The position numbers were made by a program, and so were the translations under genes. A model generated the notes under the pieces. The model was not told where the DNA came from and did not search any database. It saw only the letters and a list, made by a program, of their open reading frames with translations. A stretch of 56,732 bases of DNA from an uncultured Flavobacteriales bacterium (GTDB lineage Bacteria; Bacteroidota; Bacteroidia; Flavobacteriales; Flavobacteriaceae): contig CAJXYJ010000004.1 in the NCBI GenBank assembly GCA_913063255.1, positions 1 to 56,732 of the forward strand, read 5' to 3'. Shown here piece after piece: positions 29,662-54,084 of this stretch (the first letter of the stretch is position 1; the number at the start of each line of letters is the position of its first letter).

Positions 29662-29668
29662 ATTGATT

Positions 29669-36304: not shown

Positions 36305-36349
36305 CAAAATTATACCTTTTCAAGCTTTTATTAAGTAACTAATGTTACA
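36305..36349 (-). promoter_or_regulatory. sqr promoter with WGTAAC-N4-GTTACW operator
   Basis: Palindrome AGTAACTAATGTTACA at 36334-36349; on the minus strand the -7 box TAATTTTG lies at 36305-36312. Centre to first T is 29.5 bp, which puts the operator near -41.5. Leader about 24 bases. Confidence 0.75.
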
Positions 36350-36400
36350 TTTCAGACCCTAATAATAGGTTAGAAAATAGAAGCTTATAAGTTTTAAAAA

Positions 36401-36607
36401 TTAATTATCTTTTTTCTTTGTATTAATTCCTAAAACTGTGTAAAGAGGGCAAAAGTTTAAAAAACTAGTTAATAAAAATACTCCTGCGACAACTAATAAA
36501 ATGATGCCTAAAGTCCCTGGAACTGTTCCTGTGAAATAAAGTATTGCAGCAATAATTGTAATTACTATTCGAATCATGCAATCTGTACCGCCCATGTTTT
36601 TTTTCAT
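36401..36607 (-). CDS. DUF2892 (YgaP-like) small membrane protein
   Basis: A 68-residue protein starting MKKNMGGTDCMIR, the common start of DUF2892 members, with two membrane helices (about 11-29 and 32-50). It is homologous to the membrane part of YgaP. It follows a 28-codon microprotein gene by 19 bases and probably shares its promoter. Role unknown; association with rhodanese-type sulfur genes is known for the family. Confidence 0.82.
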   Translation of the reverse strand: MKKNMGGTDCMIRIVITIIAAILYFTGTVPGTLGIILLVVAGVFLLTSFLNFCPLYTVLGINTKKKDN

Positions 36608-36626
36608 AATTAGTTTATTTTATTCA

Positions 36627-36713
36627 TTAATTAAATAGAAATACAATTCCTGAAATTATTGAAATGCAAATTAGACAAGACAAAATAATCTTAAATATTT
36701 TTTCTAATTTCAT
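36627..36713 (-). CDS. 28-residue membrane microprotein
   Basis: An ATG-started frame of 28 codons: basic MKLEKIFK followed by one hydrophobic helix with two cysteines (SCLIC) and ending FLFN. It begins almost exactly at the predicted start site of the promoter at 36719-36761 and precedes the DUF2892 gene. Promoter, position and composition favour a real peptide over chance; no homologue is known to me. Confidence 0.45.
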   Translation of the reverse strand: MKLEKIFKIILSCLICISIISGIVFLFN

Positions 36714-36718
36714 ACATT

Positions 36719-36761
36719 CAAAGTTATTAATTGTTAGTTAATATAAATGTGACAAATGTCA
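36719..36761 (-). promoter_or_regulatory. promoter with perfect TGAC-N4-GTCA operator
   Basis: Palindrome TGACAAATGTCA (36750-36761). On the minus strand the -7 box TAACTTTG is at 36719-36726, centre to first T 29.5 bp, identical to the copper operon site. Start site about 36714, one base before the microprotein ATG. The palindrome is also 19 bases upstream of the divergent methyltransferase start, where it could act as a repressor site. Confidence 0.65.
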
Positions 36762-36780
36762 TTACGCTAAAATAGTGAAA

Positions 36781-37374
36781 ATGAAAGACATAAATCAAAT
36801 TTTAGGTAAAACAGATATCTATTTAATAGACCAAATTGTTAAAGGAAGGTATCAAAATTCTGATGTAATTTTAGATGCAGGTTGCGGTCAAGGAAGAAAC
36901 TTACATTGGTTTTATAATAATGAATTTACCATATATGGTATTGATGCTAATGAAGACAATATTGAAAAGTTAAAAAAGATATATCCTAAGGGAGTAAATA
37001 ATTTTTCAGTTTCAAAGATTGAAGAGTTAAATTTCAAAGATGATTTTTTCAATCATATAATCTGTAATGCTGTAATGCATTTTGCTAATAATGAAACTCA
37101 TTTTATAAAAATGTTTGACGAATTAATGAGAGTATTAAAATCAAAAGGAACCTTGTTTATTAGAGTTGCATCAGATATTGGAATAAGGGATAAAATAAAA
37201 CATATTTCTAATGGAGTTTATAAATTACCAGATGGTACAAATCGTTATTTAGTTTCAAAAACATTATTAAAAAAGTTAAACGAAACCAATACTTTTAAAC
37301 TATTAGAGCCTCTAAAAACAGTAAATGTAAATGACTTACGCTGTATGACAACCTTAGTAATTCAAAAAAAATAA
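36781..37374 (+). CDS. class I SAM-dependent methyltransferase
   Basis: A 197-residue soluble methyltransferase. Motif I is LDAGCGQG (about residues 30-37), the acidic end of strand 2 is IYGIDAN, and the post-I region HIICNAVMHFANNE matches the Methyltransf_11/25 type. Substrate unknown. I start at the ATG at 36781; a GTG two codons upstream is possible. Four bases separate it from the sterol desaturase gene, so the two probably form one operon. Confidence 0.82.
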   Translation: MKDINQILGKTDIYLIDQIVKGRYQNSDVILDAGCGQGRNLHWFYNNEFTIYGIDANEDNIEKLKKIYPKGVNNFSVSKIEELNFKDDFFNHIICNAVMHFANNETHFIKMFDELMRVLKSKGTLFIRVASDIGIRDKIKHISNGVYKLPDGTNRYLVSKTLLKKLNETNTFKLLEPLKTVNVNDLRCMTTLVIQKK

Positions 37375-37378
37375 TTCT

Positions 37379-38284
37379 ATGGAAAAATATATAAACAGTT
37401 TTATAGACGCTTTTATTGGAACACTATCTTGGACTTGGGATTCTATACTATTTAAAGTGCCTTGGTATAACAATTATTTTTGGGGATTAATCGTTATTTC
37501 ATTGGTGGTTTGGGGATTAGAAATGGTGTTCCCTTGGAGAAAAAATCAATCCATTATCCGAAAGGACTTTTGGTTAGATGGTTTTTATATGTTTTTTAAT
37601 TTTTTTATTTTCTCTATTGTCATTAGTGGATTTTATAATGTATTTGGACTTCTATTTTCTGAAGTTGGAATCAACCATAAGAGTTTGGCAATTATTGATA
37701 TTTCTCAATGGGAACAATGGCAGCAACTTTTAATCTTTTTTATAGTTTTAGATTTTGTGCAATGGCTTACTCATGTTTTGCTTCATAAATTTGAAATTTT
37801 ATGGCGATTTCATAAAGTACATCATTCTGTTAAAGAAATGGGTTTTGCAGCACATTTACGCTACCATTGGATGGAGAATATATTTTATAAACCTCTTAAA
37901 ACATTTGGAGTCATGATACTTGGAGGCTTTGAACCAGAACAAGCTTATATCGTTCACTTTATAGCAATAAGTATAGGACATTTAAATCATGCAAACATTA
38001 GAATAACTTGGGGACCATTGAAGTATCTATTTAATAATTCTGTAATGCATTTATACCATCATATTAAAGCATTACCTGAAGATAGGCCACAAGGCATTAA
38101 TTTTGGAATTAGTTTAAGCGTCTGGGATTATATTTTTAAAACCAATTATGTGCCAGATGATAATGGAGAAATTGAGTTAGGGTTTCCAGGCGAGGAATCA
38201 TTTCCAAAAGAATTTGTAGGTCAATTGTTTACTGGGTTTGGAAAGAAGAAAAATGATAATTTAGATAAGGAAGATAATATGTAG
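37379..38284 (+). CDS. sterol desaturase / fatty acid hydroxylase family protein
   Basis: A 301-residue membrane di-iron enzyme. Histidine clusters for the di-iron site are HVLLH (about residue 133), HKVHH (about 145), HLNHAN (about 201) and HLYHH (about 220), lying between membrane helices. It should hydroxylate or desaturate a lipid with O2. Substrate is not apparent. No clear connection with the sulfur genes. Confidence 0.88.
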   Translation: MEKYINSFIDAFIGTLSWTWDSILFKVPWYNNYFWGLIVISLVVWGLEMVFPWRKNQSIIRKDFWLDGFYMFFNFFIFSIVISGFYNVFGLLFSEVGINHKSLAIIDISQWEQWQQLLIFFIVLDFVQWLTHVLLHKFEILWRFHKVHHSVKEMGFAAHLRYHWMENIFYKPLKTFGVMILGGFEPEQAYIVHFIAISIGHLNHANIRITWGPLKYLFNNSVMHLYHHIKALPEDRPQGINFGISLSVWDYIFKTNYVPDDNGEIELGFPGEESFPKEFVGQLFTGFGKKKNDNLDKEDNM

Positions 38285-38321
38285 TAATCAACCTTAAACA
38301 ACAGATTGGCAGGCTTGTATT

Positions 38322-38951
38322 TTAATCTCTTACATTAAGTACAATCCATTGGTATCCATCATATACCATTTCAATAGCTCCTTGACCACTTAATGTTTCA
38401 GCAGGACCAGGTCCATAAGAAAGTATCCTATTTTCTTCATCTGAGTCCCTATCGTTGTCTAAAAGTTTCATATTGGATGTGGTTGGGTTAATCAATATGA
38501 TATGCTTTCCAGCAAATCCTCCTACAATTCCAGAAATTTGAAAAGAACTAGTTGGCCCTGTAAACCTAATCACAGTTTTATATGAATAATCACCAGCGAG
38601 TCCTACATCTAAATTATCAAATTGAGTATTCGGAGAATTGGCAACAAGAGCGTGATTTATTAAAGAATAATAACCCGAGCCAGAAGACATGAAAGTGTTG
38701 TTAGCCATCACTAAACCGTTGTCAACGGCAAGCTTATTCAAAGTCCCTTCGTCATCTATACCAATAACTGAAACCATCGTTCTATCAACATCGAGATCAG
38801 TATCAGTTACTCGAATTTTTCCAATAACATGGAGTGTTTCCTGTGGATCTGTGGTGTTAATCCCAACTCCCTTTGTTTGAGGAGGGTCACCAAATTGAGC
38901 ATAACCGTACTGAAACAATAATAAACATAATATGAGACTAATTTTTTTCAT
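38322..38951 (-). CDS. exported protein, tandem paralogue A
   Basis: A 209-residue protein with signal peptide (ending YGYAQ), then GVGINTTDPQETLHVIGKIRVTD (two adjoining parts, about residues 29-50), a motif common in flavobacterial surface and fibre-like proteins, and a beta-rich domain ending in a conserved GQGAIEMVYDGYQWIVLNVR stretch. The start is the ATG followed by AAA AAA at 38951. It is 21 bases downstream of a close paralogue with the same length and ends. No known function. Confidence 0.75.
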   Translation of the reverse strand: MKKISLILCLLLFQYGYAQFGDPPQTKGVGINTTDPQETLHVIGKIRVTDTDLDVDRTMVSVIGIDDEGTLNKLAVDNGLVMANNTFMSSGSGYYSLINHALVANSPNTQFDNLDVGLAGDYSYKTVIRFTGPTSSFQISGIVGGFAGKHIILINPTTSNMKLLDNDRDSDEENRILSYGPGPAETLSGQGAIEMVYDGYQWIVLNVRD

Positions 38952-38972
38952 ATGGATCATTTACAAACAGTA

Positions 38973-39602
38973 TTAATTTCTTATATTAAGTATAACCCAA
39001 CGGGTTCCATCATATACCATTTCAATAGCCCCTTGACCTTGTGTCTGATCTGTTGTACCAGCACCATAAGTAAGTATCATATTCTCATTATCTGATGAAT
39101 TAGGGGAATAATCTTCATCTCTAACACCCATATGTTCTGTGGATGAGTTAAGCAATAGGACATGTCTTCCTGGAACTCCTCCTTGAATTCCGGAAATAAA
39201 AAAGGCTTGAGGTGCGTTTAAAAACCTAATTACAGTTTCATGTGCATTTATGTTATTGACACCTAAATCTAAATTTGCCATATCAACACCCGGTGTATAC
39301 TCTACGTAATCAGGAAGATTATCAAAATCCATATCTAACACAGAATAACTAGTGGTGCCAGAAACAGTGATGGTGTTGTTGGTAATCACAAAATCGGGGC
39401 TAAGGTTAATCTTGCTCAAAGTCTCATTGTCATCTATACCAATAATTGAAACCATCGTTCTACCAAAACCGATATCAGTATCAGTTACTCGAATTTTTCC
39501 ATTTACATCGAGTGCTTCCTGTGGATTGGTGGTGTTAACACCAACTTGAGCGAAACTACTTTCAATTAGAAATAAAAATAATATAATACCAATTTTTTTC
39601 AT
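38973..39602 (-). CDS. exported protein, tandem paralogue B
   Basis: A 209-residue protein with signal peptide (ending SSFAQ), the VGVNTTNPQEALDVNGKIRV motif right after it, and the same C-terminal GQGAIEMVYDGTRWVILNIR as its neighbour. The two are conserved at both ends and diverge in the middle (about residues 75-150), a pattern of tandem duplication and divergence. Start ATG at 39602. Upstream is a 298-base AT-rich gap. Confidence 0.75.
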   Translation of the reverse strand: MKKIGIILFLFLIESSFAQVGVNTTNPQEALDVNGKIRVTDTDIGFGRTMVSIIGIDDNETLSKINLSPDFVITNNTITVSGTTSYSVLDMDFDNLPDYVEYTPGVDMANLDLGVNNINAHETVIRFLNAPQAFFISGIQGGVPGRHVLLLNSSTEHMGVRDEDYSPNSSDNENMILTYGAGTTDQTQGQGAIEMVYDGTRWVILNIRN

Positions 39603-39900
39603 AATCACCATTTTGAACAGTTTATTGATAACTGTTAATTAACAATATTGGGGTATCAATGGGGATATAATCTGTAAATTAATAGTGCTAAATTAATTGG
39701 AGAAAGTTATATATAATGTAAAAACAACAACTTTTAGCCTAAATGTAATAAATACTCGTCAAACTACTTAAAAAATTAAAATTCCACCATGAAAACATGT
39801 AGGAAGATTGTTAAGAAATCAGGTTTAATGTCTTAAAAAACAAAAGATATAGAATAAAAAAGTGTAGGAAGGGTAATTGAGGAAATGTTAAATTAAGCGA
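39603..39900. other. gene-free AT-rich stretch
   Basis: About 298 bases between the paralogue pair and the methyltransferase operon end. I see no convincing frame, operator palindrome or terminator. The only pattern noted is the 9-mer TGTAGGAAG, twice in direct orientation (39798-39806 and 39863-39871). It should hold the promoter for the paralogue pair, but I find no exact TAnnTTTG on that strand. Confidence 0.5.
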
Positions 39901-40485
39901 TTATTTTTTTATGAATTTTATAAATAATTCGTGGTTTTTTCTACTTAGAATCGAATTATATGAGAGTTCTATTATTTCAATTTTAAAATATGGTTTGAAG
40001 CAAAAACAGTATTCATCTTTATTACCTCCAAAAGGAGGTCGATCATCATATAAAGGAACATTAAAAAGTAACCCTACCAATTTTCCTTTTGACTTTAATA
40101 ATTCACTAGTTTTTAATGCATAGTTAGACCTTTGCTTAGGAGGTATTGCACAAAAAAAAGTTTGTTCTATGATGAGGTCAAAAGAATCGTTTAATTCAAA
40201 AAAATTGGAATGAATTAATTGATTTTTAGGAAATTTTGGAATTCTTTTTTGAAGATTAGACAGTGCAGTTAAAGAAATATCTATTACAAAAACGTTTTTA
40301 AAGCCTTGGTTAAAAAGATATTCTGCTTCGTATGAATTTCCACCACCAGGAATTAGAATTTTAAGACTTTTATCTGTTAATTGATCAAAATATGTTTTCA
40401 AAGGAGTAGAAATTTTACCAATATCCCATCCTGTATTTTGAGATTTATATCGATTATCCCAAAAATCTTCGTCGATTTCAGTCAT
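39901..40485 (-). CDS. TPMT-family methyltransferase
   Basis: A 194-residue methyltransferase of the thiopurine S-methyltransferase (TPMT) family: N-terminal DFWDNRYKSQNTGWDIG (residues 7-23), glycine-rich ILIPGGGNSYEAEYLF (about 44-59), and the typical EQTFFCAIPPKQRSNY (about 108-123). TPMT-family members methylate thiols, selenols or halides, so a thiol or sulfide substrate would suit the region; this is inference. Last gene of a six-gene leftward operon, five bases after thioredoxin. Confidence 0.82.
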   Translation of the reverse strand: MTEIDEDFWDNRYKSQNTGWDIGKISTPLKTYFDQLTDKSLKILIPGGGNSYEAEYLFNQGFKNVFVIDISLTALSNLQKRIPKFPKNQLIHSNFFELNDSFDLIIEQTFFCAIPPKQRSNYALKTSELLKSKGKLVGLLFNVPLYDDRPPFGGNKDEYCFCFKPYFKIEIIELSYNSILSRKNHELFIKFIKK

Positions 40486-40490
40486 TAATA

Positions 40491-40787
40491 TTAAAGAAAT
40501 TTATTAATCTTAGATATAATGTCATTTTTGGGGATTACTCCAGATTGTCTCCACATGACTTTACTTTTCTTATATAATATCAATGTAGGAACCCCTTGTA
40601 CACTTAAAGAAGTTGCTAATCTGTTGTTTTTATCCACATCTATTTTTAATATTTTAACCTTATCTCCAAGACTACTTTTTACTTCTTTTAAAATGGGAGA
40701 CATAGTTTTGCAAGGCCCACACCAATCTGCGAAAAAATCTACAAGTACTGGTTGGTCACTAGCGATAATATTAAAAAAACTACTCAT
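40491..40787 (-). CDS. thioredoxin
   Basis: A 98-residue cytoplasmic thioredoxin with active site WCGPC (C23, C26) and the cis-proline region GVPTLILY. No signal peptide. It sits in an operon with rhodanese, heavy-metal-associated and heme proteins, so it may serve sulfur transfer or reduce persulfides rather than being the housekeeping thioredoxin (inference). Confidence 0.9.
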   Translation of the reverse strand: MSSFFNIIASDQPVLVDFFADWCGPCKTMSPILKEVKSSLGDKVKILKIDVDKNNRLATSLSVQGVPTLILYKKSKVMWRQSGVIPKNDIISKINKFL

Positions 40788-40800
40788 AATATTTTAGGAT

Positions 40801-41418
40801 TTATTCTTTTTTAAACTGAATACTCCAAACCCCTCTAACTTGATTTTCTGAATACCCTACTGCCATATCGTTTGGATATAATCTCTTAATAGTGGAGAAG
40901 GTTTTTGTGTCTATCTCTTTATTGGGAGTGCCATGACATTTTAGGCACATTACATTTGTTATTATCGGGTAATAAAAAAGTATGCTATCGTTATTGATTT
41001 CGACAATAGGAGCAATATCTTCTTTGTTAGAAAGCATTCTTTTAAAAAGTTCTATTTTTTTTAATTCCGTATTATTAGCTTTATTATTGGGGTTTCTTGT
41101 TTTATCTGAAACCCTTTTAATTCTAGCTTTATGAAAAGTAGCCATGCTATCGGTTAAGGATATGGCTTTAATATCACAAAATTCTAAAGCTGCTACAGCT
41201 CCCTTTTCTTTCATGGTTCCCATCAAATTTTTTCCTAATTGAGATTTGGTGGTAAATGCCATGTCTAATCCAATTTGTTGATAGGAAGGATCAATTTTTG
41301 AAATTGCTTCTTTATTTTCTTTCTCTTTTAAAGAAGGACTAAGCTCTTTCTTATCGTTTTTACAGGAAGAAAAAAGAACGATCATTAAAACAAATACAAT
41401 AGAATATAGTCTTTTCAT
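40801..41418 (-). CDS. DUF3365 (Tll0287-like) c-type heme lipoprotein
   Basis: A 205-residue lipoprotein (lipobox FSSC, cysteine 19) with a DUF3365 domain. The heme-attachment motif CLKCH is at residues 158-162. The fold is related to haem-PAS sensors; other members bind one c-type heme. Here, without a kinase or cyclase attached, it could be a free periplasmic heme sensor or electron carrier. It is three bases after the methyltransferase gene in the operon. Confidence 0.83.
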   Translation of the reverse strand: MKRLYSIVFVLMIVLFSSCKNDKKELSPSLKEKENKEAISKIDPSYQQIGLDMAFTTKSQLGKNLMGTMKEKGAVAALEFCDIKAISLTDSMATFHKARIKRVSDKTRNPNNKANNTELKKIELFKRMLSNKEDIAPIVEINNDSILFYYPIITNVMCLKCHGTPNKEIDTKTFSTIKRLYPNDMAVGYSENQVRGVWSIQFKKE

Positions 41419-41421
41419 TTT

Positions 41422-42048: not shown

Positions 42049-42057
42049 TTTTATGAA

Positions 42058-43209: not shown

Positions 43210-43253
43210 CAAATATATAATTAGGTTTTTAGAACGATGTAACAAACGAAACA
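43210..43253 (-). promoter_or_regulatory. rhodanese promoter with degenerate GTAAC operator
   Basis: TGTAACAAACGAAACA at 43238-43253 fits WGTAAC-N4-GTTACW with one core mismatch (GAAAC). The minus-strand -7 box TATATTTG is at 43210-43217; centre to first T is 28.5 bp, one less than the others. A further GTTAC half-site follows at 43256-43260. Confidence 0.55.
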
Positions 43254-43275: not shown

Positions 43276-44697
43276 CTATAACATTGTTGTTGGGCAAACA
43301 AATTCAGATAGAGGAGCTTTTGTTTCAATAATATCTTCAAAACCACCCCTTACATCTGTTACTTTTTCAACACCATTGGCCATAAATATAGATGCAGCAA
43401 TTAAAGAACGATAACCCGTTTTACAATGTAAAAAATATTCTTTGCTGGTATCAATTTCAGCAAAGTTAGTATGGATAAAATCTAAAGGAAAATTTTCTAC
43501 ACCTATCACATGTTCCGATAAATATTCAGATTCTTTACGAACATCCACAGGTTTTTCAATAGCTCCTGCTGCTAGTAAATCTACAAATTTAGTCGCCGAA
43601 ACAGAACCTATTTTATCTACAATATAGCCATGTGCGAGCCAGTCTTTAATGCCGCCATTTAAATAGCCAAGTGTGTTATCATATCCAACTCTAGAAAAAC
43701 GAGTTACAATTTCATTTACTCGTAATTCATCATCCGAAATAAATATAATTTTTTGATTAATATCGGGAACAATAGCTCCAACCCAAGGGGCAAAATTACC
43801 ATCTACTCCAATATACCATGCTCCAGGGACAGTGCCTTCTTCAGCGTAAGCTTCTTTAGAACGGGTGTCGATTACTAAAATATCTTTTTTCTCACTTAAT
43901 TCTTTAAAAGTTACAGGATCTAAGGGTGTAGTCCCTTTATGTAAAATAACATCTATACTTGTATTGATAGATTTATTCATTCTCACATTATTTGGAAAAT
44001 ATTGTGGAGGAGGCTTTAATCCCGAAGTTACTTCTTCTATAAATTCCTCTTTAGTCATATCTGCTCTTAACGCATAGTTGGTTTTCTTTTGATTTCCTAA
44101 AGTATCAAAAGTTTCAGAACTCATATTTTTACCACAAGCAGAACCAGCACCATGATTTGGATATACAATAATATCATCTGGCAAAGTCATTATTTTATTT
44201 CGAAGAGATTCGAATAGAAAACCCGCTAGATCTTTTTCTGTTATTGTTCCAGACTTAACAGCTAAATCCGGACGGCCTACATCTCCTATAAATAAGCAAT
44301 CTCCAGTTAAAACACAAGGAGACATACCTTCTTCATTCGTAATTAAATATGAAGACGATTCCATAGTATGACCTGGAGTATGTAATAAAGTGATTTTACC
44401 ATCACCTAAAGGGAATTCTTCCCCATCTGTACCATTATAAATATCATATTCGGCTGCAGCACTTGGTCCAAATACTATTTTTGCGCCGGTCTTTTGAGCT
44501 AAATCATATTGTCCTGAAACAAAATCTGCATGAAAATGAGTTAGAAATATATATTTTATTTTAGCGCCATCAGCTTCAGCCATTCTAAGATAAGGTTCGG
44601 TTTCTCTTAAAGGATCAACAATTGCAGCCTCTCCATTAGATTCAATATAATATGCCATTTCAGCAAGGCATCCTGTAAATAATTGTTCTACTTTCAT
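43276..44697 (-). CDS. CstB-like persulfide dioxygenase / rhodanese fusion
   Basis: A 473-residue, three-part protein. Residues 1-235 are an ETHE1/Blh-like metallo-beta-lactamase fold with THFHADF (H54, H56, D58), TPGH (H110) and GDCLF (D133), giving the mononuclear iron site of persulfide dioxygenases. Residues about 258-360 are a rhodanese domain whose catalytic cysteine is replaced (around S321, IFISDDE), a pseudo-rhodanese. Residues about 365-465 are an active rhodanese with C425 in HCKTGYRS. This order is that of Staphylococcus CstB, which turns persulfides into sulfite and thiosulfate. It is under its own GTAAC operator, between it and the SulP gene. Confidence 0.88.
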   Translation of the reverse strand: MKVEQLFTGCLAEMAYYIESNGEAAIVDPLRETEPYLRMAEADGAKIKYIFLTHFHADFVSGQYDLAQKTGAKIVFGPSAAAEYDIYNGTDGEEFPLGDGKITLLHTPGHTMESSSYLITNEEGMSPCVLTGDCLFIGDVGRPDLAVKSGTITEKDLAGFLFESLRNKIMTLPDDIIVYPNHGAGSACGKNMSSETFDTLGNQKKTNYALRADMTKEEFIEEVTSGLKPPPQYFPNNVRMNKSINTSIDVILHKGTTPLDPVTFKELSEKKDILVIDTRSKEAYAEEGTVPGAWYIGVDGNFAPWVGAIVPDINQKIIFISDDELRVNEIVTRFSRVGYDNTLGYLNGGIKDWLAHGYIVDKIGSVSATKFVDLLAAGAIEKPVDVRKESEYLSEHVIGVENFPLDFIHTNFAEIDTSKEYFLHCKTGYRSLIAASIFMANGVEKVTDVRGGFEDIIETKAPLSEFVCPTTML

Positions 44698-44730: not shown

Positions 44731-44775
44731 CAAAATTAGCCCTAATTTACAATTGATAAAGTAACTTATGTTACA
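44731..44775 (-). promoter_or_regulatory. cstB-like gene promoter with WGTAAC-N4-GTTACW operator
   Basis: Palindrome AGTAACTTATGTTACA (44760-44775), immediately after the stop of the upstream SulP gene. The minus-strand -7 box TAATTTTG is at 44731-44738; centre to first T 29.5 bp. Leader about 29 bases. Confidence 0.78.
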
Positions 44776-46518
44776 TTATCGTTTTAATATAGGTTTTGTT
44801 TTGTTTTTTTGTTTTAAATATTTATGAAACTTATCTTTCTTTAAACCAGTATTATACCAATCTACAGCCTCTTGAATACTCATAAAAAACAGGTCTTCAT
44901 TAGCTTTTTCCATAAATCCAGATTTAATCATTTTATCTCTAACCGGCCCCTTTAATCCTGTAAATGCGATGGTAATTTTCTTACTGTTAAAGTAATCTAA
45001 AATTTCAATTAAAGCATAAATTGCACTGCTATCTAAACTATTAATGCTTTCACCGTCAATTATTAAAAGCTGTAATTGTTTACCTTTTTGAGTAGAAAAT
45101 TCTTGAAGTTTATCTTTAAAATAAGTAGTATTTGCAAAATGTAATTGGGCATCAAAACGAATAATTAAAATTTCATCATCAATTTCAACATCTTTAAAAC
45201 GATTTTGATTACGATAAAAATGAGTGTTTGGCACATTTCCTAAAACTGCAATATGTGGCTTGGTGCTTTTATAGATTAGCATTACAAGAGAAAGAACTAC
45301 ACCTATAAAAATTCCTTCCTTAATTCCTACAGTAGCGGTTATTATTAAGGTTACATTTAGTATAATTAGATCTCTTTTTGAAAACCTTAATATTTGCTTA
45401 GGAATCTTAAAATCTAATAATCCAAAAACAGCTACCATAATAATTGCTGCTAAAACGGTTTTCGGGAGATAATAAAATAATGGAGTTAAAAACAAAAGTG
45501 TTAGTGCAATAATTAAAGCTGAAACTAAAGCTGCAAGTGGAGTTTTTGCTTCAGATTGTTCATTCACGGCCGTTCTAGAAAACCCTCCAGTTGCAGGATA
45601 GGTTTGAAAAAAGGAACCTATAAAATTTCCCATCCCTAAGGCAATTAATTCCTGATTAGGCTTTACTTTATATTCAGGATGTTTAGCTTCAATTGCTTTT
45701 GCAACAGAAATTGCTTCTAAAAAAGCAATAAACGAAAGGGTTAAAGCAATTGGAAATAAATCGGTTATTGTTTTTTTATCGAATATAGGCATTCTAAATT
45801 CTGGCAAGCCCTTTGGGATTTCTCCAATTATAGAAACTCCTAATTGATCTAATTGAAATATTTTTGCAATTAAAATAGAAAGAACTACTACAAATATAGC
45901 AGCAGGGATTTTCTGAAAATATTTTTTAATTAAAACGATACAAATAATAGATAGCGCGCCTATTGTAAAAGTTAGCCAATGAATTTCATGAAGGTGATGA
46001 TAAGCTTCAAATAATAAATCTTGAAGCCTATTGTTTCTCTCTAAATGTACACCTAGTAAATTATTTAATTGACTAAACCCTATTATTAATGCTGCTGCAG
46101 ATGTAAAACCACTTATTACTGGTTTTGATAAGAAGTTAACAATAAACCCTAACCTAAAAACTCCAAAAAGAATTTGTAAAATTCCCATAATAAAAGCCAA
46201 TAAAATGGCAAATTCTATAAAACGATCCGTGCCAACTTCGGCTAATGTAGCAACCCCAGCAGCAACGATTAAGGAATCCATAGCCACAGGACCAACAGCT
46301 AATTGTCTAGAAGTTCCAAAAACTGCATACACTATTTGTGGAACCAAAGCAGTATACAACCCATAAATAGGAGGCAACCCTGCAATTAGTGCATATGCTA
46401 TTCCCTGAGGAATTAGCATTACTCCAACAGTTAATCCAGCGACAACATCCCCTTTAAGCCATTCTTTTTTATAATTAGGAAGCCATTCTAAAATAGGAAG
46501 TATGTTTTTAAAATTCAT
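44776..46518 (-). CDS. SulP family anion transporter with STAS domain
   Basis: A 580-residue inner-membrane transporter of the SLC26/SulP family: about 14 helices (residues 1-420) with IPQGIAYALIAGLPPIYGLY (about 37-56) and the NFIGSFFQTYPATGGFSRTA region (about 297-316), then a cytoplasmic STAS domain (about 445-560). SulP proteins carry sulfate, bicarbonate or other anions. Given the pathway it could export sulfate or sulfite made inside the cell; import is equally possible on sequence. It has its own operator and promoter at 46553-46597. Confidence 0.85.
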   Translation of the reverse strand: MNFKNILPILEWLPNYKKEWLKGDVVAGLTVGVMLIPQGIAYALIAGLPPIYGLYTALVPQIVYAVFGTSRQLAVGPVAMDSLIVAAGVATLAEVGTDRFIEFAILLAFIMGILQILFGVFRLGFIVNFLSKPVISGFTSAAALIIGFSQLNNLLGVHLERNNRLQDLLFEAYHHLHEIHWLTFTIGALSIICIVLIKKYFQKIPAAIFVVVLSILIAKIFQLDQLGVSIIGEIPKGLPEFRMPIFDKKTITDLFPIALTLSFIAFLEAISVAKAIEAKHPEYKVKPNQELIALGMGNFIGSFFQTYPATGGFSRTAVNEQSEAKTPLAALVSALIIALTLLFLTPLFYYLPKTVLAAIIMVAVFGLLDFKIPKQILRFSKRDLIILNVTLIITATVGIKEGIFIGVVLSLVMLIYKSTKPHIAVLGNVPNTHFYRNQNRFKDVEIDDEILIIRFDAQLHFANTTYFKDKLQEFSTQKGKQLQLLIIDGESINSLDSSAIYALIEILDYFNSKKITIAFTGLKGPVRDKMIKSGFMEKANEDLFFMSIQEAVDWYNTGLKKDKFHKYLKQKNKTKPILKR

Positions 46519-46552
46519 GTAATCGCTTTAATTATAATTTTCTTAAGGTTTG

Positions 46553-46597
46553 CAAAAATACTAATGCTAGATAATATTCTTTGTAACATGAGTTACT
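46553..46597 (-). promoter_or_regulatory. SulP promoter with WGTAAC-N4-GTTACW operator
   Basis: Palindrome TGTAACATGAGTTACT (46582-46597). The minus-strand -7 box TATTTTTG lies at 46553-46560; centre to first T 29.5 bp. Leader about 30 bases to the ATG at 46518. Confidence 0.78.
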
Positions 46598-46639
46598 AAT
46601 TATAATTGCGTTAATATCTTAGTAAATATCAGCTTAAGC

Positions 46640-48352
46640 TTATTTACATTCTTTAAATGCTTTTACCTTACAAGGATTATTTATTTTTTTATGAATTTCA
46701 ATAATGGCAGATTTTTTATCTTTAAAGAATATATCATTCCCCATTTTATTATCAAACCCCCCTTTTATTATTACTCCTTGACTCACTAGTTTTAAACTGG
46801 AAATATAAATCCCTCCCCTGTTTTTTTGCCACTTAATAATTTCATGGGTAAGCCATTCGGCAGCTGCTAAATCTATAAAATTGATGCCGTCTGCAGCAAT
46901 TAACACATGTTGTATTTTATTTTGATTGTATAAATTAGATAAGTAATCAGAAATTTTATCAATAGATCCAAAATATAAGGAACCGTCAATTCTAAGAATT
47001 TTCATATTAGAACATTCCATTGCATTACTGTCTCGTATGGAATTAATAAGTCGCCTTTGATCATTTACAGCTAAGGTTGCTATATTTGGTTTTGAGGTTC
47101 TCTCCAGATAAAAGAAAAAAGAACTGAAAATTCCTGCTAATAATGCAAATTCTAAATCAAAAAACAAAGTTCCAATTAAGGTAATTGACAATACAATAAG
47201 TTCTCGGCCACTGCTTTTAATCACTTGTCTTATGTGATTAAAGTCGATTAAATTATAGCCCACTAATACTATTATACCTCCCATTGCTGCTTTTGGTAAA
47301 TAGGAAGCATAACCCGCTAAAAGCAATAAAATTACCATTAAAAATACTGAAGAAAATATTGCTGCCATTGGAGTTTTCGCCCCTGATTGATGATTAACTC
47401 CAGATCTGGTAAAGGATCCAGACCCTGCATAGCTTGAGAAAAAACTTGCAATTAAATTAGATAAACCTTGACCGATAAACTCTTGATTTCCGTTAATTTT
47501 TTGATGGGTATGCAAAGCTATAGAACGACCTATGGCTACAGCTTCGATTAATCCTAATAGTGCTAATACCATAGCTCCAGAACTTAATGCAGCAACATTA
47601 GAATATGTAAAATCGGGAACTCGAAACGGAGGAAGATTGGACGGAATGTCTCCAACGGTTTCGATACCATATTCACTTCCACCTATCCAAACTGCAAATA
47701 AACACCCCAATACCATTGCGATTAGCATATAATACCTAGACAGTGGCTTTATTAAGGTTTTAATGACAATGGCTACCCCTAAAGTTCCAAAGGCAACAGT
47801 AAAAACATACCAATTTGTTTCTGAAATGTGATGGTATAAATAAATGCTAATTTCAGGAATAGAACTACCTTGTGGAACATCAATTCCAAAAACATGCTGT
47901 AATTGTTTAAAAGCAATTAAAATTCCTGCTCCTGCTGTAAAACCTATGATTACAGAATGAGAGACAAAATTCACCAATTTACCCATTTTTAATAATCCCA
48001 TGGTAAACTGAAATAATCCTGCCAAAAAAGTTAATACTAATGCCAATGAAATAAAGGCTTCTAAATCTGTTTCAGGATTCACAAATTTTATTAAGGTAGA
48101 ATAAACCACAATGGATATTGCTGTCGTAGGTCCTGATATTAAATGATATGAAGAACCAAATAATGCAGCAATAATAGGAGTGATCATAGCCGTATAAAAC
48201 CCATAAATAGGCGGAAGACCTGCTATCATTGCAAAAGCCACAGCTTGTGGAATAACAATAAATGTCCCTGTTATACCAGCAATGATATCATCTTTCCAAG
48301 AATTTTTAACTAATGGAAGCCAAGCTAGAAATGGAAATATCTTTTGAAGCAT
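46640..48352 (-). CDS. SulP family anion transporter with STAS domain (second copy)
   Basis: A 570-residue SulP protein with the same layout: membrane part (IPQAVAFAMIAGLPPIYGFY, about 33-52; SFFSSYAGSGSFTRSGVNHQ, about 304-323) and a STAS domain from about residue 445. It diverges from its neighbour throughout and ends with a cysteine pair (NPCKVKAFKECK). It follows the SoeA-like gene after a 116-base gap without a recognisable operator and may be read from the YeeE promoter. The presence of two different SulP proteins suggests two anions or opposite directions. Confidence 0.84.
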   Translation of the reverse strand: MLQKIFPFLAWLPLVKNSWKDDIIAGITGTFIVIPQAVAFAMIAGLPPIYGFYTAMITPIIAALFGSSYHLISGPTTAISIVVYSTLIKFVNPETDLEAFISLALVLTFLAGLFQFTMGLLKMGKLVNFVSHSVIIGFTAGAGILIAFKQLQHVFGIDVPQGSSIPEISIYLYHHISETNWYVFTVAFGTLGVAIVIKTLIKPLSRYYMLIAMVLGCLFAVWIGGSEYGIETVGDIPSNLPPFRVPDFTYSNVAALSSGAMVLALLGLIEAVAIGRSIALHTHQKINGNQEFIGQGLSNLIASFFSSYAGSGSFTRSGVNHQSGAKTPMAAIFSSVFLMVILLLLAGYASYLPKAAMGGIIVLVGYNLIDFNHIRQVIKSSGRELIVLSITLIGTLFFDLEFALLAGIFSSFFFYLERTSKPNIATLAVNDQRRLINSIRDSNAMECSNMKILRIDGSLYFGSIDKISDYLSNLYNQNKIQHVLIAADGINFIDLAAAEWLTHEIIKWQKNRGGIYISSLKLVSQGVIIKGGFDNKMGNDIFFKDKKSAIIEIHKKINNPCKVKAFKECK

Positions 48353-48468
48353 TTACAAATTTATAAATTATGTCTGGTTAAGCGCAGTCGAAAGCCTAAT
48401 ATTTTAGAATACAGATTGTTATCGGCTTTACTCGATTAATAAAAACTACCTTAATAAAATAACAATCT

Positions 48469-51360
48469 TTAATCCTCTTTTGGATCTATATAATATGTGG
48501 ATTTATCTGGTGTAAAAGCTCTTTTAAACCACAAAGGTCTTCGTTCGCCGTTTGGCCCTGGAGCAGGTCTTGTCATTGACATCCACTCTTTATATATTTC
48601 ATGAGATCTGTTAGTATCCACAAAAATATCTCCATACTTTTCATCTTCTTTTGGTTTTTCAATACGAACACGTTGATGCCAGCAATGCATACCACTAATT
48701 GGATCTGGATGTACAGCATGAGTGATATTTTGATGCACACCTCCATCTTTCCAGAAAATACGTTTGGAATCTTTATCATCAGATTCAAAAGGTTTAATAC
48801 CCGAAATCGTATTCATTTTCCAACCTCCATTTCCATCTCCTTCAATATTTACCGTATTGGTTGCCCAACGGTTTCCTGTTTTATCTTGTGGTCTTCTCCA
48901 TCTTCCAATATGATGGGAACAAGCAACAACACCAGGTTTCATTCCTTGGGTTACCCAAACCTTATCGATAAAATATCCAATATCGGTATTCATTTTCACC
49001 AAATCTCCTGTTTTGAAGCCCCATTTTGCAGCATCATCTGGATGCATCCAAATTGGATTTCGGTTAGAGATTTCCACCAGCCATTTTGCATTCCCAGAAC
49101 GGGAATGAATTAAAGTTGGCAACCTAAACGTTGGAACCAATACATATTCTCCTTTTGATTTATCTAAATTATCATTGTGAATATGACTCTTTAAATATTG
49201 GGGAACTGCATATTCAGGCCATTTCCAATCGACCATCGTTTGTGAATAAAATTCATTTTTACGAGATGGAGTAGGAAATCCTAACATTGCTTTTCCATTA
49301 ATCATGACCCCGATGTCTTTTCCGTTTTTTCGGATTACATCATTAATAGGATCAATTACAGAACCTTCTAATTCCTCTTCAGTAAGTAGCGTTTCATTCT
49401 TTTTATAGGACTCTCCTTTTTCGATTTCGAAGGTGCCATATTTCTGCATGTATTCTAACTCTGTAATTCCTTCCTTTTTAGCAACTTTAGACAAGCCAGG
49501 TACACGCTCAAAAATATATTGATAGTATTCTCCAATTTTTATTTTCTCACCAGGGCGGTAAGGCGATTCAAAATGCTTTCGAATTCCCATACTTCCATCT
49601 GGATCGATTCGCCAAGATAATTCAATCCAAAACTCATCCTCTTCCCAAACTTCTCCTGGGTTTGTTTCGTAGGTAAACTCAACATCTTTGCCATTTCTAC
49701 GAGCTGCCTCTCTTAAAACTGGTTGTCTAAACGCTACCCAAGTTCCCCCATGGGTTGCATAGGAATTGATATCGTGACGTTCAGAGGCTAATCCCATAGG
49801 TAACACAAAATCTGCATAAAAAGCAGTTTCATTCCAGGTTGGAGTTAAGGCAGCATGCATACCAAATTTTGATTCGTCTTGAAACATTTCCATCCAAGTA
49901 AAACCATCAGGATACGTCCAAACAGGGTTAAATACTCTTGAGAAATAGACATCCATTTTCCCTCTACCTTCTTTTAAGAAATGGGGTAATAATTGGCTCA
50001 TTTCAAAAAATGCTAAAGGGTATTCTTTAGGAAAATGAAGTTCGTTCCATTTCTTTTGTGGTTTTGGTGGATTTGGTTGCGTAGGACTAAATTTATTCCA
50101 GGAATTTGGTGAGGTTCCTCCCTTGGCACCAACTGCTCCTGTAAGAACAGATAAGAAATGCAAACAACGTGCGACTCCCCAACCACCAAGGTTGGAAGCT
50201 CCTGCTGCTCTCCAGTTATGGGAAGCAAAACGTTCGCCAGCATCTCCAATTAATCGAGCAATTTCAATTATAGTTTCTGCTTTTACTCCAGATTCTTTTT
50301 CAGCATATTCAGGAGTAAATTCTTTATATTCTTCAATCATTGCAGCGATGTAGTTTACGAATGTAACTTCCTTATCGCTATGCAAAGCCTTTAAATATTC
50401 TTGCCAGTTGGTCCAGTTTTCTAAATAGTCTTTGTTGTATAAACCTTCTTCTAAAATAATTAATGCCATTGCTAATAAAACAGCAGCTTCAGTCCCTGGA
50501 TAGGTTGGCATCCAATAGTCAGACATAGATGCTGTATTCGATAAACGAGGATCCATGGTAGCTAACTTAGCTCCTTTCATTTTTCCTTCGATAATACGTT
50601 GTGCATGAGGATTAAAATAATGTCCAGATTCCAAATGTGCAGAAATTAATAAAATAAATTTAGCATTAGAATGATCTGGAGATGGCCTATCGTAACCATA
50701 CCATAAATTATATCCAAACCGTGCCCCCGAGGAACAGATGTTTGTATGTGAATTATGACCATCAATACCCCAACCCTGAAGGATCCAATTCATAAATTTT
50801 TCATGGCCTGGGCGGCCAACATGATATGCAATTTCGTTATGTCTATCTTCCTCTATCGCTTTTCTAATTCGTGCTGCGAGTGTGTCTAAAACCTCATCCC
50901 AAGTAACTCGTTCCCATTCTCCCTCACCACGTTTTCCTTTACGTTTCAATGGAAATAAAATTCGATCGGGGTCTGTTATTTGATTTATAGTTGCTGGGCC
51001 TTTGGCACAATTTCTACCTCTACTTCCTGGGTGCTGTGGGTTTCCTTCAAATTTTTTAACCTCTTGTGTTTCTTTATCTATAAAGGCTGTTAAACCACAA
51101 GCACTTTCACAATTGAAGCAGGTTGTTGGAACTATTTGATAGGTTTTTTTCACCTTTTTTGGCCAAGCTTTTGGGTCGTATTCAACCCAATTGTCCCATT
51201 TTTCTGGTGGTGGAAAGTTCTCGTACATTTGAGCTACTTCGGCATCGGTAAATTGACGCATATCACCATCAAACTCATGGTATTTTTCTTTGTGCAGATT
51301 AGGGATCAATCCAATTTTCTCTGCCAATCCTTCAATAAATGATGCTTTTTTATATCCCAT
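48469..51360 (-). CDS. soeA: molybdopterin oxidoreductase, SoeA-like sulfite dehydrogenase subunit
   Basis: A 963-residue member of the DMSO reductase family. An N-terminal [4Fe-4S] site is formed by C81, C84, C88 and C118 (CFNCESACG...NCAKG). C209 in HTNICSSGARFGY is the likely molybdenum ligand. The C-terminal dinucleotide-binding domain has VYLVPTFRLP-like and HHIGRWRRP segments. There is no twin-arginine signal, so the enzyme should face the cytoplasm, as in SoeABC, which oxidises sulfite to sulfate and feeds quinone. Polysulfide or tetrathionate reductase catalytic subunits are related but normally exported, so I favour Soe. Its partner is the fused protein 15 bases upstream. Confidence 0.82.
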   Translation of the reverse strand: MGYKKASFIEGLAEKIGLIPNLHKEKYHEFDGDMRQFTDAEVAQMYENFPPPEKWDNWVEYDPKAWPKKVKKTYQIVPTTCFNCESACGLTAFIDKETQEVKKFEGNPQHPGSRGRNCAKGPATINQITDPDRILFPLKRKGKRGEGEWERVTWDEVLDTLAARIRKAIEEDRHNEIAYHVGRPGHEKFMNWILQGWGIDGHNSHTNICSSGARFGYNLWYGYDRPSPDHSNAKFILLISAHLESGHYFNPHAQRIIEGKMKGAKLATMDPRLSNTASMSDYWMPTYPGTEAAVLLAMALIILEEGLYNKDYLENWTNWQEYLKALHSDKEVTFVNYIAAMIEEYKEFTPEYAEKESGVKAETIIEIARLIGDAGERFASHNWRAAGASNLGGWGVARCLHFLSVLTGAVGAKGGTSPNSWNKFSPTQPNPPKPQKKWNELHFPKEYPLAFFEMSQLLPHFLKEGRGKMDVYFSRVFNPVWTYPDGFTWMEMFQDESKFGMHAALTPTWNETAFYADFVLPMGLASERHDINSYATHGGTWVAFRQPVLREAARRNGKDVEFTYETNPGEVWEEDEFWIELSWRIDPDGSMGIRKHFESPYRPGEKIKIGEYYQYIFERVPGLSKVAKKEGITELEYMQKYGTFEIEKGESYKKNETLLTEEELEGSVIDPINDVIRKNGKDIGVMINGKAMLGFPTPSRKNEFYSQTMVDWKWPEYAVPQYLKSHIHNDNLDKSKGEYVLVPTFRLPTLIHSRSGNAKWLVEISNRNPIWMHPDDAAKWGFKTGDLVKMNTDIGYFIDKVWVTQGMKPGVVACSHHIGRWRRPQDKTGNRWATNTVNIEGDGNGGWKMNTISGIKPFESDDKDSKRIFWKDGGVHQNITHAVHPDPISGMHCWHQRVRIEKPKEDEKYGDIFVDTNRSHEIYKEWMSMTRPAPGPNGERRPLWFKRAFTPDKSTYYIDPKED

Positions 51361-51375
51361 TTTTTTGATTCATTA

Positions 51376-53007
51376 TTAGGCTAGAGGAACTCTTTGCGGA
51401 GCTTCTATCCAAATTTTTTCAGTGGTATAAATTCCTATTAAAATTAAAACTGCAGCAATTGTTAATATGCTACCATCTAGAGATTCCTCGATACCTCGGA
51501 ATGACAACAATACTAGTGGGAGAACATTACCAATTAAAACTACTCCAAACCAGAATAGGTTTTTATATCTTCCTTTGGTAATCATTTTTACAACAGTTTG
51601 TGCTGATGAACTTGGATGTGTCATTGTTAGTTCAGTAATCATTGTAAATAAATTAACGGAAAGAGCAATAATCATTACCATTCCTAAAATTGACATCCAG
51701 ATTTCAGTTCCTGAAACCAATAATACCAAAGCGAAAATTGCTGCTCCAGCCATGATACTATGCACTAACATATGCAAAGCTAAAGATGGACTTTGCCAAA
51801 AGTCACGACCTTTTGCTTGTGCAAATAAGAAAGCAGTATAAATCGCTAACATCACTGCGAAAAATGCGATTATCCATATCAAAATGGTTTCCCCTGTTTG
51901 AATTTCAAAATATATCATGCCCCCCCAAACGGTAACTAACAATCCGAAAATAGTGATAGTATAGCCCCCTTTTACGAGCCAAGAATTCCATTGTGGTCGT
52001 AATAACACATTTAAAAATCGATCGGGTCTATCTAAATCCATCACTAAGAAAAGTCCTGTTAATGAAAGGAAAAATAATGAAATCCCTACAGACCAGAGTT
52101 TCGTAGTACTGGAAAGATCATATCCCATTAACATAGCTAAAAAAGGTATTAAAAATGCACCGGCAGCAACAGCTTTTGAAGTAACATAAGCCGAAACTTC
52201 CCAACCCCAAAGAATACCTTTGTCTGGCGTATCATAAACTCTTCTTGCTTTTCCTGAAAGTACATCTATATAATTAGGATTCTTATTGTTTTTTTTCTGA
52301 TAAGCGGCTTCGACTTCATTATTGATTGTCATTTGTAACAAATCGATATCGTCATTTGTATTTATCATTTTTTCTGCTGCTTTAGCAAAATGACCAACTC
52401 CTCTAGCTTGTGAATTCCATAGTCCCGCATTTACTTTTTCGGTGGCTTCTGGATTTAGGGACGCTTCGTCTCCATCTATATAAAAAAGATTTGGGTTGGT
52501 TCCCTTTTCAGGCTTTCGGACTTTAACTTGCTGTCTGGCTAGTAAGTGTGAAATCTCCGTTGTTGGGTTTTCCATATCTCCAGCAATTATTGCATGTTCT
52601 GGACAAACAGATACACAAGCAGGCTCTCTCCCTACGTCCACTCTATGTGCACAATAATTACATTTTGCGGCAGTATTGGTGTCTGGATCAATATAAAGAG
52701 CATCATATGGACAAGCTTGCATACAAGATTTACATCCTATACAACGATTATTATCAAAATCTACAATACCATCTTCACGAGTATATAATGCTTCCACAGG
52801 GCAGATAGTTACACAAGGTGCATCTGTACAATGATTACAACGCATTACCGAAAATATTCTTCGGGTATCTGGAAACTCTCCTTTTTCTACTTGCTTTACA
52901 TAGGTCCTGTTTACTCCAACAGGGACATCGTGCTCCGATTTACAAGCGGTTGTACATGCGTGACAACCAATGCATTTTCGGTTATCGATAATAAAGCCGT
53001 ATTTCAT
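51376..53007 (-). CDS. fused SoeB-SoeC: 4Fe-4S ferredoxin plus NrfD/DmsC-type membrane anchor
   Basis: A 543-residue fusion. Residues 1-180 are a DmsB/SoeB-like subunit with four cysteine groups (CIGCHACTTAC at 12-22, CNHCTDAPCVTIC near 57, CIGCKSCMQAC near 88, CNYCAHR...CVSVC near 115), enough for four [4Fe-4S] clusters. After a linker (about 180-275), residues 280-543 hold eight membrane helices of the NrfD/DmsC family that exchange electrons with quinone. In most bacteria these are separate proteins. No signal peptide precedes the iron-sulfur part, so it is cytoplasmic, matching the SoeA-like partner. Confidence 0.85.
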   Translation of the reverse strand: MKYGFIIDNRKCIGCHACTTACKSEHDVPVGVNRTYVKQVEKGEFPDTRRIFSVMRCNHCTDAPCVTICPVEALYTREDGIVDFDNNRCIGCKSCMQACPYDALYIDPDTNTAAKCNYCAHRVDVGREPACVSVCPEHAIIAGDMENPTTEISHLLARQQVKVRKPEKGTNPNLFYIDGDEASLNPEATEKVNAGLWNSQARGVGHFAKAAEKMINTNDDIDLLQMTINNEVEAAYQKKNNKNPNYIDVLSGKARRVYDTPDKGILWGWEVSAYVTSKAVAAGAFLIPFLAMLMGYDLSSTTKLWSVGISLFFLSLTGLFLVMDLDRPDRFLNVLLRPQWNSWLVKGGYTITIFGLLVTVWGGMIYFEIQTGETILIWIIAFFAVMLAIYTAFLFAQAKGRDFWQSPSLALHMLVHSIMAGAAIFALVLLVSGTEIWMSILGMVMIIALSVNLFTMITELTMTHPSSSAQTVVKMITKGRYKNLFWFGVVLIGNVLPLVLLSFRGIEESLDGSILTIAAVLILIGIYTTEKIWIEAPQRVPLA

Positions 53008-53038
53008 TTGTTTTGTGTTATTAAAATAGTTTTATCCT

Positions 53039-53458
53039 TCAATGGGGGATTTTATTTTTAATTCCATGATAAAAGAAAGTTCCGATAAGTGCACCTATTA
53101 TAACAATTACTATTGCCAATGCTCCTTTTCCCAATAAGATGAACATAGGACCTGGGCAAGCTCCTGCTAATGCCCATCCTAAACCAAAAATAATTCCACC
53201 AATAATATTTCTTGAGAAGCCTTTCTTTTTAGGTTCAATTTCTATTTTATTTCCTAAATAATTTTTAATACTTCCTTTTCTGAAAAAGTAAAATAAAATC
53301 ATTCCGGTTATAACTGCAGATCCAATAACCCCATACATATGAAACGATTGAAATTTAAACATTTCATAAATACGATACCATGAAATAATTTCTGCTTTGC
53401 TTAGTACAATTCCGAAGAGAATACCAAATATTATAAATTTTAAGTTTTTCATATACAA
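53039..53458 (-). CDS. YeeE/YedE half-transporter (DUF6691)
   Basis: A 139-residue membrane protein with four helices, the C-terminal half of the YeeE/YedE fold. The conserved cysteine motif ALAGACPGPMFILLGKG (about residues 100-116) would bind thiosulfate or sulfane sulfur by analogy with TsuA. It pairs with the preceding 185-residue half, three bases apart. Confidence 0.85.
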   Translation of the reverse strand: MYMKNLKFIIFGILFGIVLSKAEIISWYRIYEMFKFQSFHMYGVIGSAVITGMILFYFFRKGSIKNYLGNKIEIEPKKKGFSRNIIGGIIFGLGWALAGACPGPMFILLGKGALAIVIVIIGALIGTFFYHGIKNKIPH

Positions 53459-53461
53459 GAG

Positions 53462-54019
53462 TTAAAAAATTAATGGAAGTAAAAGCCATGTCATTATAAG
53501 ACCGCCAATAAAAAATCCAATTACTGAAATTAATGATGGAATTTCTAAATTACTCAATCCTGTAATGGCATGGCCAGAGGTACAGCCTCCAGCATATCGA
53601 GATCCGAATCCAACAAAGATTCCCGCTATTAATAAAATTAAAAACCCTTTTAAAGAAAACATGGTTTCTATACTAAAAATCTCATCGGGCAAATATTGAG
53701 CTCCTGCATTTTGAAATCCTAAATTAGATAAGTCTTGAATGGTTTGTTGACTTATCGCCACAGTTTCATTAGGAGTTAACCATTGACTACTAATAAAACC
53801 CCCAAGAATTAAACCTACTAAAAAAAGAAGATTCCAAGTGTCTTTTTTCCAATTGGTTTTAAAAAAATCATTAAAATTTCCTGCACCTCCTAGGGTACAA
53901 ATTGTTTCTAAATTGGAAGAAACTCCAAATTTTTTACCAAAATAAAAAAGGAGAAACATTACAAATGTAATTAACGGCCCAGCAACATACCATGGCCATG
54001 GGTTGAGTATAAAATCCAT
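53462..54019 (-). CDS. YeeE/YedE half-transporter
   Basis: A 185-residue membrane protein with about five helices, the N-terminal half of the YeeE/YedE family. SRYAGGCTSGHAITGLS (about residues 141-157) contains the conserved cysteine of sulfur transporters of this type. With the next gene it should make a sulfur-species (thiosulfate or polysulfide) permease. First gene of the leftward unit YeeE-DUF6691-SoeBC-SoeA, and possibly SulP, driven by the operator promoter at 54040-54084. Confidence 0.86.
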   Translation of the reverse strand: MDFILNPWPWYVAGPLITFVMFLLFYFGKKFGVSSNLETICTLGGAGNFNDFFKTNWKKDTWNLLFLVGLILGGFISSQWLTPNETVAISQQTIQDLSNLGFQNAGAQYLPDEIFSIETMFSLKGFLILLIAGIFVGFGSRYAGGCTSGHAITGLSNLEIPSLISVIGFFIGGLIMTWLLLPLIF

Positions 54020-54039
54020 AAATACTTATTAAGTAGTTT

Positions 54040-54084
54040 TAAATATAGGGATGAAGTTATAGCTATTTAGTAACAATTGTTACA
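54040..54084 (-). promoter_or_regulatory. yeeE-soe promoter with WGTAAC-N4-GTTACW operator
   Basis: Palindrome AGTAACAATTGTTACA (54069-54084). The minus-strand -7-like box TATATTTA (54040-54047) matches TAnnTTTG except for the last base; centre to first T 29.5 bp. Leader about 16 bases. It is 114 bases beyond the end of the regulator gene. Confidence 0.72.

Follow-up and report, generated by a model that had tools for sequence, protein, structure and literature searches.

A predicted sulfide and persulfide regulon of Flavobacteriaceae with a Crp/Fnr-type operator in fixed phase with the promoter

What reads the palindrome that stands in front of several sulfur operons in a flavobacterial contig, and what does its single distance from the promoter mean? 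The stretch in question is the 56,732-nt contig CAJXYJ010000004.1 (hereafter the window) of an uncultured Flavobacteriales bacterium (GCA_913063255.1). The palindrome has the form WGTAAC-N4-GTTACW, and an earlier note on this DNA had proposed that it defines a regulon activated from a class II position, with the Crp/Fnr-family protein encoded at 54198-54830 as its regulator. The motif, its phase, its conservation, its target genes and its association with the regulator were followed up in silico. We consider it highly probable that the palindrome is the operator of this protein and that the protein activates transcription from it in class II fashion. The arrangement is class II by its geometry, and the regulon is broader than the earlier note stated.

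The four exact copies listed previously (36334, 44760, 46582 and 54069) are indeed present, and a fifth, at 31055, had been overlooked; five in the window compare with 0.01 expected from shuffled sequence. The copy at 43238, which had been credited with one mismatch, carries two, and since 24 palindromes with up to two mismatches occur in the window where 9 are expected, it is weak by itself. The distances to the promoter box were reproduced: measured to the first T of the minus-strand box, the palindrome centre is 29.5 bp away at the four copies listed previously and 28.5 bp away at 43238. Among the seven sites considered (31033, 31055, 36334, 43238, 44760, 46582 and 54069), five have TAnnTTTR at one offset, a constancy beyond chance, as had been argued (P = 5e-11; 7e-9 over 130 offsets). 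According to the accessible part of PMC9723704, the TAnnTTTG box spans positions -12 to -5 of mapped starts in Flavobacterium psychrophilum. With the first T at -12, a spacing of 29.5 bp therefore puts the operator centre at -41.5, the class II position, and the earlier placement agrees with this mapping, the start being a predicted one here. By the same arithmetic from PMC9723704, the sqr transcript would begin at about 36300, 24 nt before the ATG, and leaders of 16 to 30 nt are predicted for the five operons.

The phase is shared by relatives. An ortholog-alignment scan of named genomes supplied the 80 best of a longer list of named loci (70-97% identity, 1.41 Mb), in which 194 palindromes were found, as against at most 7 for any half-site rearrangement. 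TAnnTTTG lies exactly 29.5 bp away in 100 of these 194, where 0.31 would be expected; a further 5 stand at 30.5 bp, and no other bin out to 130 bp holds more than 2. With one mismatch allowed in the box, the figure at 29.5 bp rises to 174 of 194 (3.8 expected). The profile over these 174 phased sites reads T-GTAAC-N4-GTTAC-T-G. The symmetric outer W of the original motif did not survive this comparison: T occupies the distal position in 87% of sites, while on the proximal side T (68%) is followed by G (64%).

A scan of the whole genome, which the earlier note had named as the check that could overturn it, came out in its favour. In this assembly (2.93 Mb, 236 contigs, 81% complete), 9 exact palindromes were found, 5 of them on this contig, and 2 in the reversed control. 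For the composite of operator and box, GTAACN4GTTAC-N22-TAnnTTTG, matches with up to three mismatches number 42 against 57 in the reversed control, and all five composites with 0 or 1 mismatch lie on this contig, preceding sqr, the MBL-rhodanese gene, sulP, the yeeE-molybdoenzyme genes and an RND efflux operon. Across 299 Flavobacteriaceae genomes, the exact composite, with spacers of 21-23 bp allowed, occurs in 214, and in 11 for the reversed control (counted from the table). At 31 other spacers (24-54), it occurs in 77 of the 299, with control matches about equally common by eye. A phylum-wide sample gave 30 of 296 genomes by hand count, divided as 17/30 in the family, 1/6 in the rest of the order, 10/37 in the rest of the class and 2/223 outside the class. 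A sulfur cluster (L264, L265 and L266), operators included, is shared by two genomes from different families at 85 to 92% identity over some 13 kb, a sign that the regulon may have been transferred laterally as a whole.

The protein encoded at 54198-54830 has a cNMP_binding domain and an HTH_Crp_2 domain, both over the Pfam cut-offs. Its model shows the CRP fold (mean predicted local distance difference test score, pLDDT, 82; predicted template modelling score, pTM, 0.58), and the 50 structure matches listed are all of the Crp/Fnr family. In the alignment, its recognition helix SRVVISR pairs with the TRVTVTR stretch of NtcA (STRVTVTR). With homologs, including distant ones, called at an E-value of at most 1e-20, the composite was found in 210 of 255 family genomes with a homolog and in 4 of 44 without (Fisher p 2e-21); the four exceptions are 73-87% complete. 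The 54069 operator adjoins the regulator gene, just downstream, and operators adjoin regulator genes in other genera too. For 45 genomes picked from the matches listed in two tables, the distance from the regulator to the nearest composite is at most 200 bp in 24 and at most 20 kb in a further 16; in the other 5 it is greater, or the composite is on another contig. Some of the genomes lacking the exact composite are accounted for by operators that have drifted: with up to 2 mismatches, a perfect box and the same spacer, an operator is found at 9 of 10 loci whose CC-bearing regulators share about 50% identity with that of the window. None with up to 2 mismatches was found at L257, nor at the loci without the CC pair (L249, L250). 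The earlier proposal, in which this protein reads the operators of a regulon at class II spacing, is supported by the phasing in the 80 loci, the co-occurrence, the regulator-adjacent operators and the NtcA-like helix.

The genes that would be controlled were tallied from 178 named-locus palindromes with a box of at most one mismatch at 28.5 to 30.5 bp. The gene downstream is MBL-rhodanese in 52 cases, TauE in 35, YeeE in 20, SQR (sulfide:quinone reductase) in 6, a second SQR-like type in 3, the OEP gene of an RND pump in 6, a 1-Cys peroxiredoxin in 6, a rhodanese in 5, a Tll0287-like protein in 5, SulP, FeS-NrfD and cytochrome c in 2 each, and a fatty-acid hydroxylase-like protein in 1; 3 are unassigned (a cluster of two small open reading frames, ORFs, and a single ORF), and no downstream gene was found for 9. 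The remaining cases concern the regulator's own surroundings, a near-phase operator preceding DUF983 in 12 of the 80 loci and the regulator itself in 9, and no operator was found before the DUF983-regulator pair of the window with a 22-bp spacer and up to 2 mismatches in total. For the TauE, peroxiredoxin, second SQR-like and cytochrome c groups, the name rests in each case on a single member tested against Pfam. Of the 80 loci, 74 carry one or more of the listed sulfur genes, and three of the 6 that carry none are on full-length stretches; MBL-rhodanese, TauE or YeeE is present in 69.

Conservation upstream of the individual genes sorts the targets that had been claimed. Of 64 MBL-rhodanese genes of relatives, 53 have the composite with up to 2 mismatches in the 200 bp before them, a level reached by 21 of 300 background genes, which were unannotated and not cleared of TauE, peroxiredoxin or other proposed targets. 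The composite is present with 1 or 2 mismatches, never perfect, at 32 of 41 YeeE genes, perfect at 6 of 6 OEP genes (two with a 23-bp spacer), with up to 3 mismatches at 7 of 10 SQR genes, and with up to 1 mismatch at 4 of 8 relatives of the first SulP gene. Phase and conservation speak for sqr, the cstB-like gene, sulP and yeeE-soe as named earlier; the RND operon had been missed, and the rhodanese gene had been included on a copy that we rejected as a supported operator. That copy, 43238, has two mismatches and an offset of 28.5 bp, and none of 9 relatives of its rhodanese gene has a composite upstream (best 5 to 7 mismatches); in these relatives the gene may be transcribed from the promoter of the preceding gene. 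The MBL-rhodanese product is one that we take to be CstB-like from the order of its domains, and the genes for FeS/NrfD and the molybdoenzyme appear SoeABC-like by context. A single 543-aa gene (51376-53007) encodes the FeS electron-transfer protein and the NrfD membrane protein as a fusion.

Features of the window that bear on the proposed regulon
Feature	Coordinates	Strand	Remarks
OEP-HlyD-RND efflux operon	25386..30982	-	
RND efflux operon operator, one mismatch	31033..31048	-	box TATTTTTG at 29.5; overlooked in the earlier note
Second, exact RND-operon operator	31055..31070	-	22 bp upstream of 31033 copy, in tandem
Sulfide:quinone reductase-like gene (sqr)	34936..36276	-	best NCBIfam model type III SQR, below cut-off
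sqr operator	36334..36349	-	box TAATTTTG (36312-36305) at 29.5, counted from centre to first T
Doubtful two-mismatch copy before rhodanese gene	43238..43253	-	box TATATTTG at 28.5
MBL with two rhodanese stretches	43276..44697	-	persulfide dioxygenase candidate
MBL-rhodanese (CstB-like) operator	44760..44775	-	box TAATTTTG at 29.5
Two SulP-STAS transporters	44776..48352	-	
sulP operator (gene 44776-46518)	46582..46597	-	box TATTTTTG at 29.5
FeS/NrfD fusion and molybdopterin oxidoreductase	48469..53007	-	
Two half-length YeeE-type sulfur transporter genes	53039..54019	-	split YeeE adjoins FeS/NrfD fusion
yeeE-yeeE-FeS/NrfD-molybdoenzyme operator	54069..54084	-	box TATATTTA at 29.5, final base off consensus
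Crp/Fnr-family regulator, proposed operator reader	54198..54830	-	C77, C83, C84; recognition helix HTSRVVISR
DUF983 gene	54840..55229	-	directly upstream of regulator

Some sites depart from the simple arrangement. The 31055 copy stands 51.5 bp from the RND box, with its centre at about -63.5, and tandem pairs resembling 31033/31055 are visible in other genera among the matches listed. On another contig of the genome (C9:32617-32681; L016, L037), a GTAAC palindrome before a multihaem cytochrome gene is centred 49.5 bp from TAACTTTG, and an FNR-like TGATATTTATCA sits between the two, exactly 29.5 bp from the box. Pairs of palindromes resembling this arrangement are likewise visible in other genera among the matches listed, and the 29.5-bp phase may hold for the Crp/Fnr class II promoters of this group at large. 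Class I positions were considered and suit few sites, namely 31055 as second member of its pair and C9:32666 at 49.5. A further exact palindrome (C6:25598; L015) lies directly before a small ORF and napA, the latter over the NCBIfam NapA cut-off, and has no box at the usual phase. A second palindrome, TGAC-N4-GTCA, occurs twice in the window (31131-31142 and 36750-36761; see also L018 at 6043), intergenic and facing sulfur operons; its longer form ATGAC-N4-GTCAT has 7 copies in the 80 loci, 3 of them at the same phase, and it is perhaps the site of another Crp/Fnr paralog. In 9 of the 80 loci (L117, L118, L132, L134, L145, L157, L161, L170 and L172), a second Crp/Fnr paralog shares the neighbourhood; these nine proteins have 34-37% identity and an SREV or SREG helix, and all lack the CC pair.

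In the mechanism that we propose, TGTAAC-N4-GTTACTG would be bound by a dimer of the 54198-54830 protein centred near -41.5, from where a class II contact would activate RNA polymerase carrying the group's primary sigma factor, for which TAnnTTTG would be the box. Activation would switch on sulfide oxidation by SQR, persulfide oxidation by the MBL-rhodanese protein, transport by SulP and YeeE (and by TauE in relatives), the molybdoenzyme complex and the RND pump. The inducer would most likely be reactive sulfur species, sensed by C77 and C83 and usually also by C84. Each of the 30 distinct proteins in the first ortholog set, that of the window among them, contains C-A-M-T-x-x-C-C, and in the alignment this stretch occupies the place of the cyclic-nucleotide cassette of CRP proteins. 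All of C77, C83 and C84 are kept in 78 of the 80 named-locus orthologs and C77 and C83 alone in the other 2; a conserved C77/C83 pair, the feature sought in a reactive-sulfur sensor, is thus present in 80 of 80. Among 27 distant homologs, those at 44-60% identity keep all three cysteines in 17 of 20 cases. The ten CC-bearing loci at about 50% identity have YeeE beside the regulator in every case, and TauE together with MBL-rhodanese in nine. At 31-35% identity the pair is missing in 7 of 7 homologs, 6 of which have a REV-type helix, and no sulfur neighbours were seen in the four of these loci that were examined.

Several points weigh against the proposed reading, some concerning its reader and others its signal. 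On the reader, the co-occurrence test ignores genome size, the exact composite is absent from 45 of the 255 genomes that have a homolog, and the named loci were picked via the regulator, so that the co-location of sulfur genes with it there is by construction. In addition, four of the nine exact palindromes in the genome are off-phase (before napA, before the multihaem cytochrome gene, in coding sequence and near a contig end), and five Crp/Fnr helix domains are encoded in this genome, any of the other four proteins being one that could bind the site. An anaerobic or nitrate regulator, for example, might read the palindrome, and the sulfur genes would then be part of a redox regulon. The exact copies before the small ORF with napA and before the cytochrome gene, and the FNR-like site at 29.5 bp in the latter, would suit such a paralog; the composite tracks the 54198-54830 regulator and often lies beside its gene, and the recognition helices of the other four proteins differ from its own by eye, which makes a paralogous reader improbable. 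Crp/Fnr proteins are also capable of repression, and a repressor acting from the same operator is a further candidate. NtcA can repress, according to the accessible part of PMC3898017, but a repressor site would not need a single strict phase, and a centre at -41.5 is the position of a class II activator; we regard repression as very unlikely. That the pattern is an artefact of chance or composition has a practically negligible probability: the degenerate 43238 copy falls within chance expectation, but the five exact palindromes and the composite in 214 of 299 genomes, with 11 in the control, do not.

As to the signal, C83 is missing in 3 of the 20 homologs at 44-60% identity (L197, L203 and L218), and two examined regulators without the CC pair still adjoin YeeE, one of them with a palindrome. 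All 39 of the sequences aligned retain C77, among them homologs that have no sulfur genes around them, and for this reason C77 alone is no sulfur signature. The loop itself (residues 81-86) was modelled at pLDDT below 50. These points, together with the dispensability of C84, also speak for an activator of sulfur genes that responds to another cue (a small ligand, the redox state or nothing at all) and whose cysteines are structural or bind a metal, an explanation to which we give a substantial chance, somewhat short of even. It is opposed by the distribution of the CC pair over 16 distant loci: 10 of the 12 loci with YeeE have the pair, as do all 9 with TauE and MBL-rhodanese, and none of the 4 without sulfur genes has it. 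That reactive sulfur is sensed by C77 and C83, usually with C84 as well, is to us an evenly balanced proposition. The same even weight attaches to the fuller picture, in which the cyclic-nucleotide site would have become a C-x5-C(C) thiol switch, and the Crp/Fnr activator would govern a family-wide sulfide and persulfide regulon from -41.5, in places with the RND pump and its own gene included.

Flavobacteriaceae form a major part of marine, soil and freshwater life, as stated in the accessible part of PMC9723704. Among the papers listed by our literature search, outside which most subscription journals fell, there was no account of the control of sulfide or persulfide genes in this family and none of a Crp/Fnr sensor of reactive sulfur. 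What is new, in silico, is the regulon, its strict family-wide geometry and a possible mode of sensing. Used together with its exact spacing, the motif can readily predict the sulfide/persulfide regulon on a genome scale, and membership suggests sulfur roles for DUF983, the RND pump and the 1-Cys peroxiredoxin. The system also lends itself to a specific test of cysteine-based sensing of reactive sulfur by a Crp/Fnr protein.

Compared with known systems, the regulator shares its fold with E. coli CRP and Pseudomonas Vfr, and the class II geometry proposed for it is that of CRP. It differs from Vfr in its helix (SREMVGR in Vfr), and the phosphate-binding cassette residues of CRP, the GEL and RSA of the cAMP cassette, are missing in the alignment to Vfr. 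FNR has the same fold, and since no cysteine precedes residue 77, the N-terminal cluster ligands of FNR are absent from the window protein. HcpR of Porphyromonas gingivalis (9day), which serves in nitric-oxide defence, is a Crp/Fnr fold within Bacteroidota with 15% identity to our regulator. The sulfide and persulfide regulators CstR, SqrR/BigR and FisR control overlapping kinds of target genes but belong to families unrelated to Crp/Fnr, and CstR, SqrR and BigR are repressors. The best sequence match in the PDB, the Crp/Fnr protein 3dv8 of Eubacterium rectale, has a C-x5-C in the same loop but a different helix, SHREVITR. The accessible part of PMC12531629, on Crp/Fnr helices, holds nothing on NtcA or Bacteroidota. 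NtcA, whose site GTAN8TAC is centred near -41.5 and which answers 2-oxoglutarate and controls nitrogen genes (PMC3898017, accessible part), resembles our protein in the R-V...R of the recognition helix, in a site that TGTAAC-N4-GTTACA fits and in the position of its centre. It differs in identity (20-23% in the structure matches), and the window regulator has sulfur genes and the cysteine loop and scores 35.6 bits on the curated NtcA model, whose cut-off is 244.95. The regulator would work in the manner of an NtcA or CRP class II activator and, judged by the features tested, is neither CRP, FNR nor NtcA.

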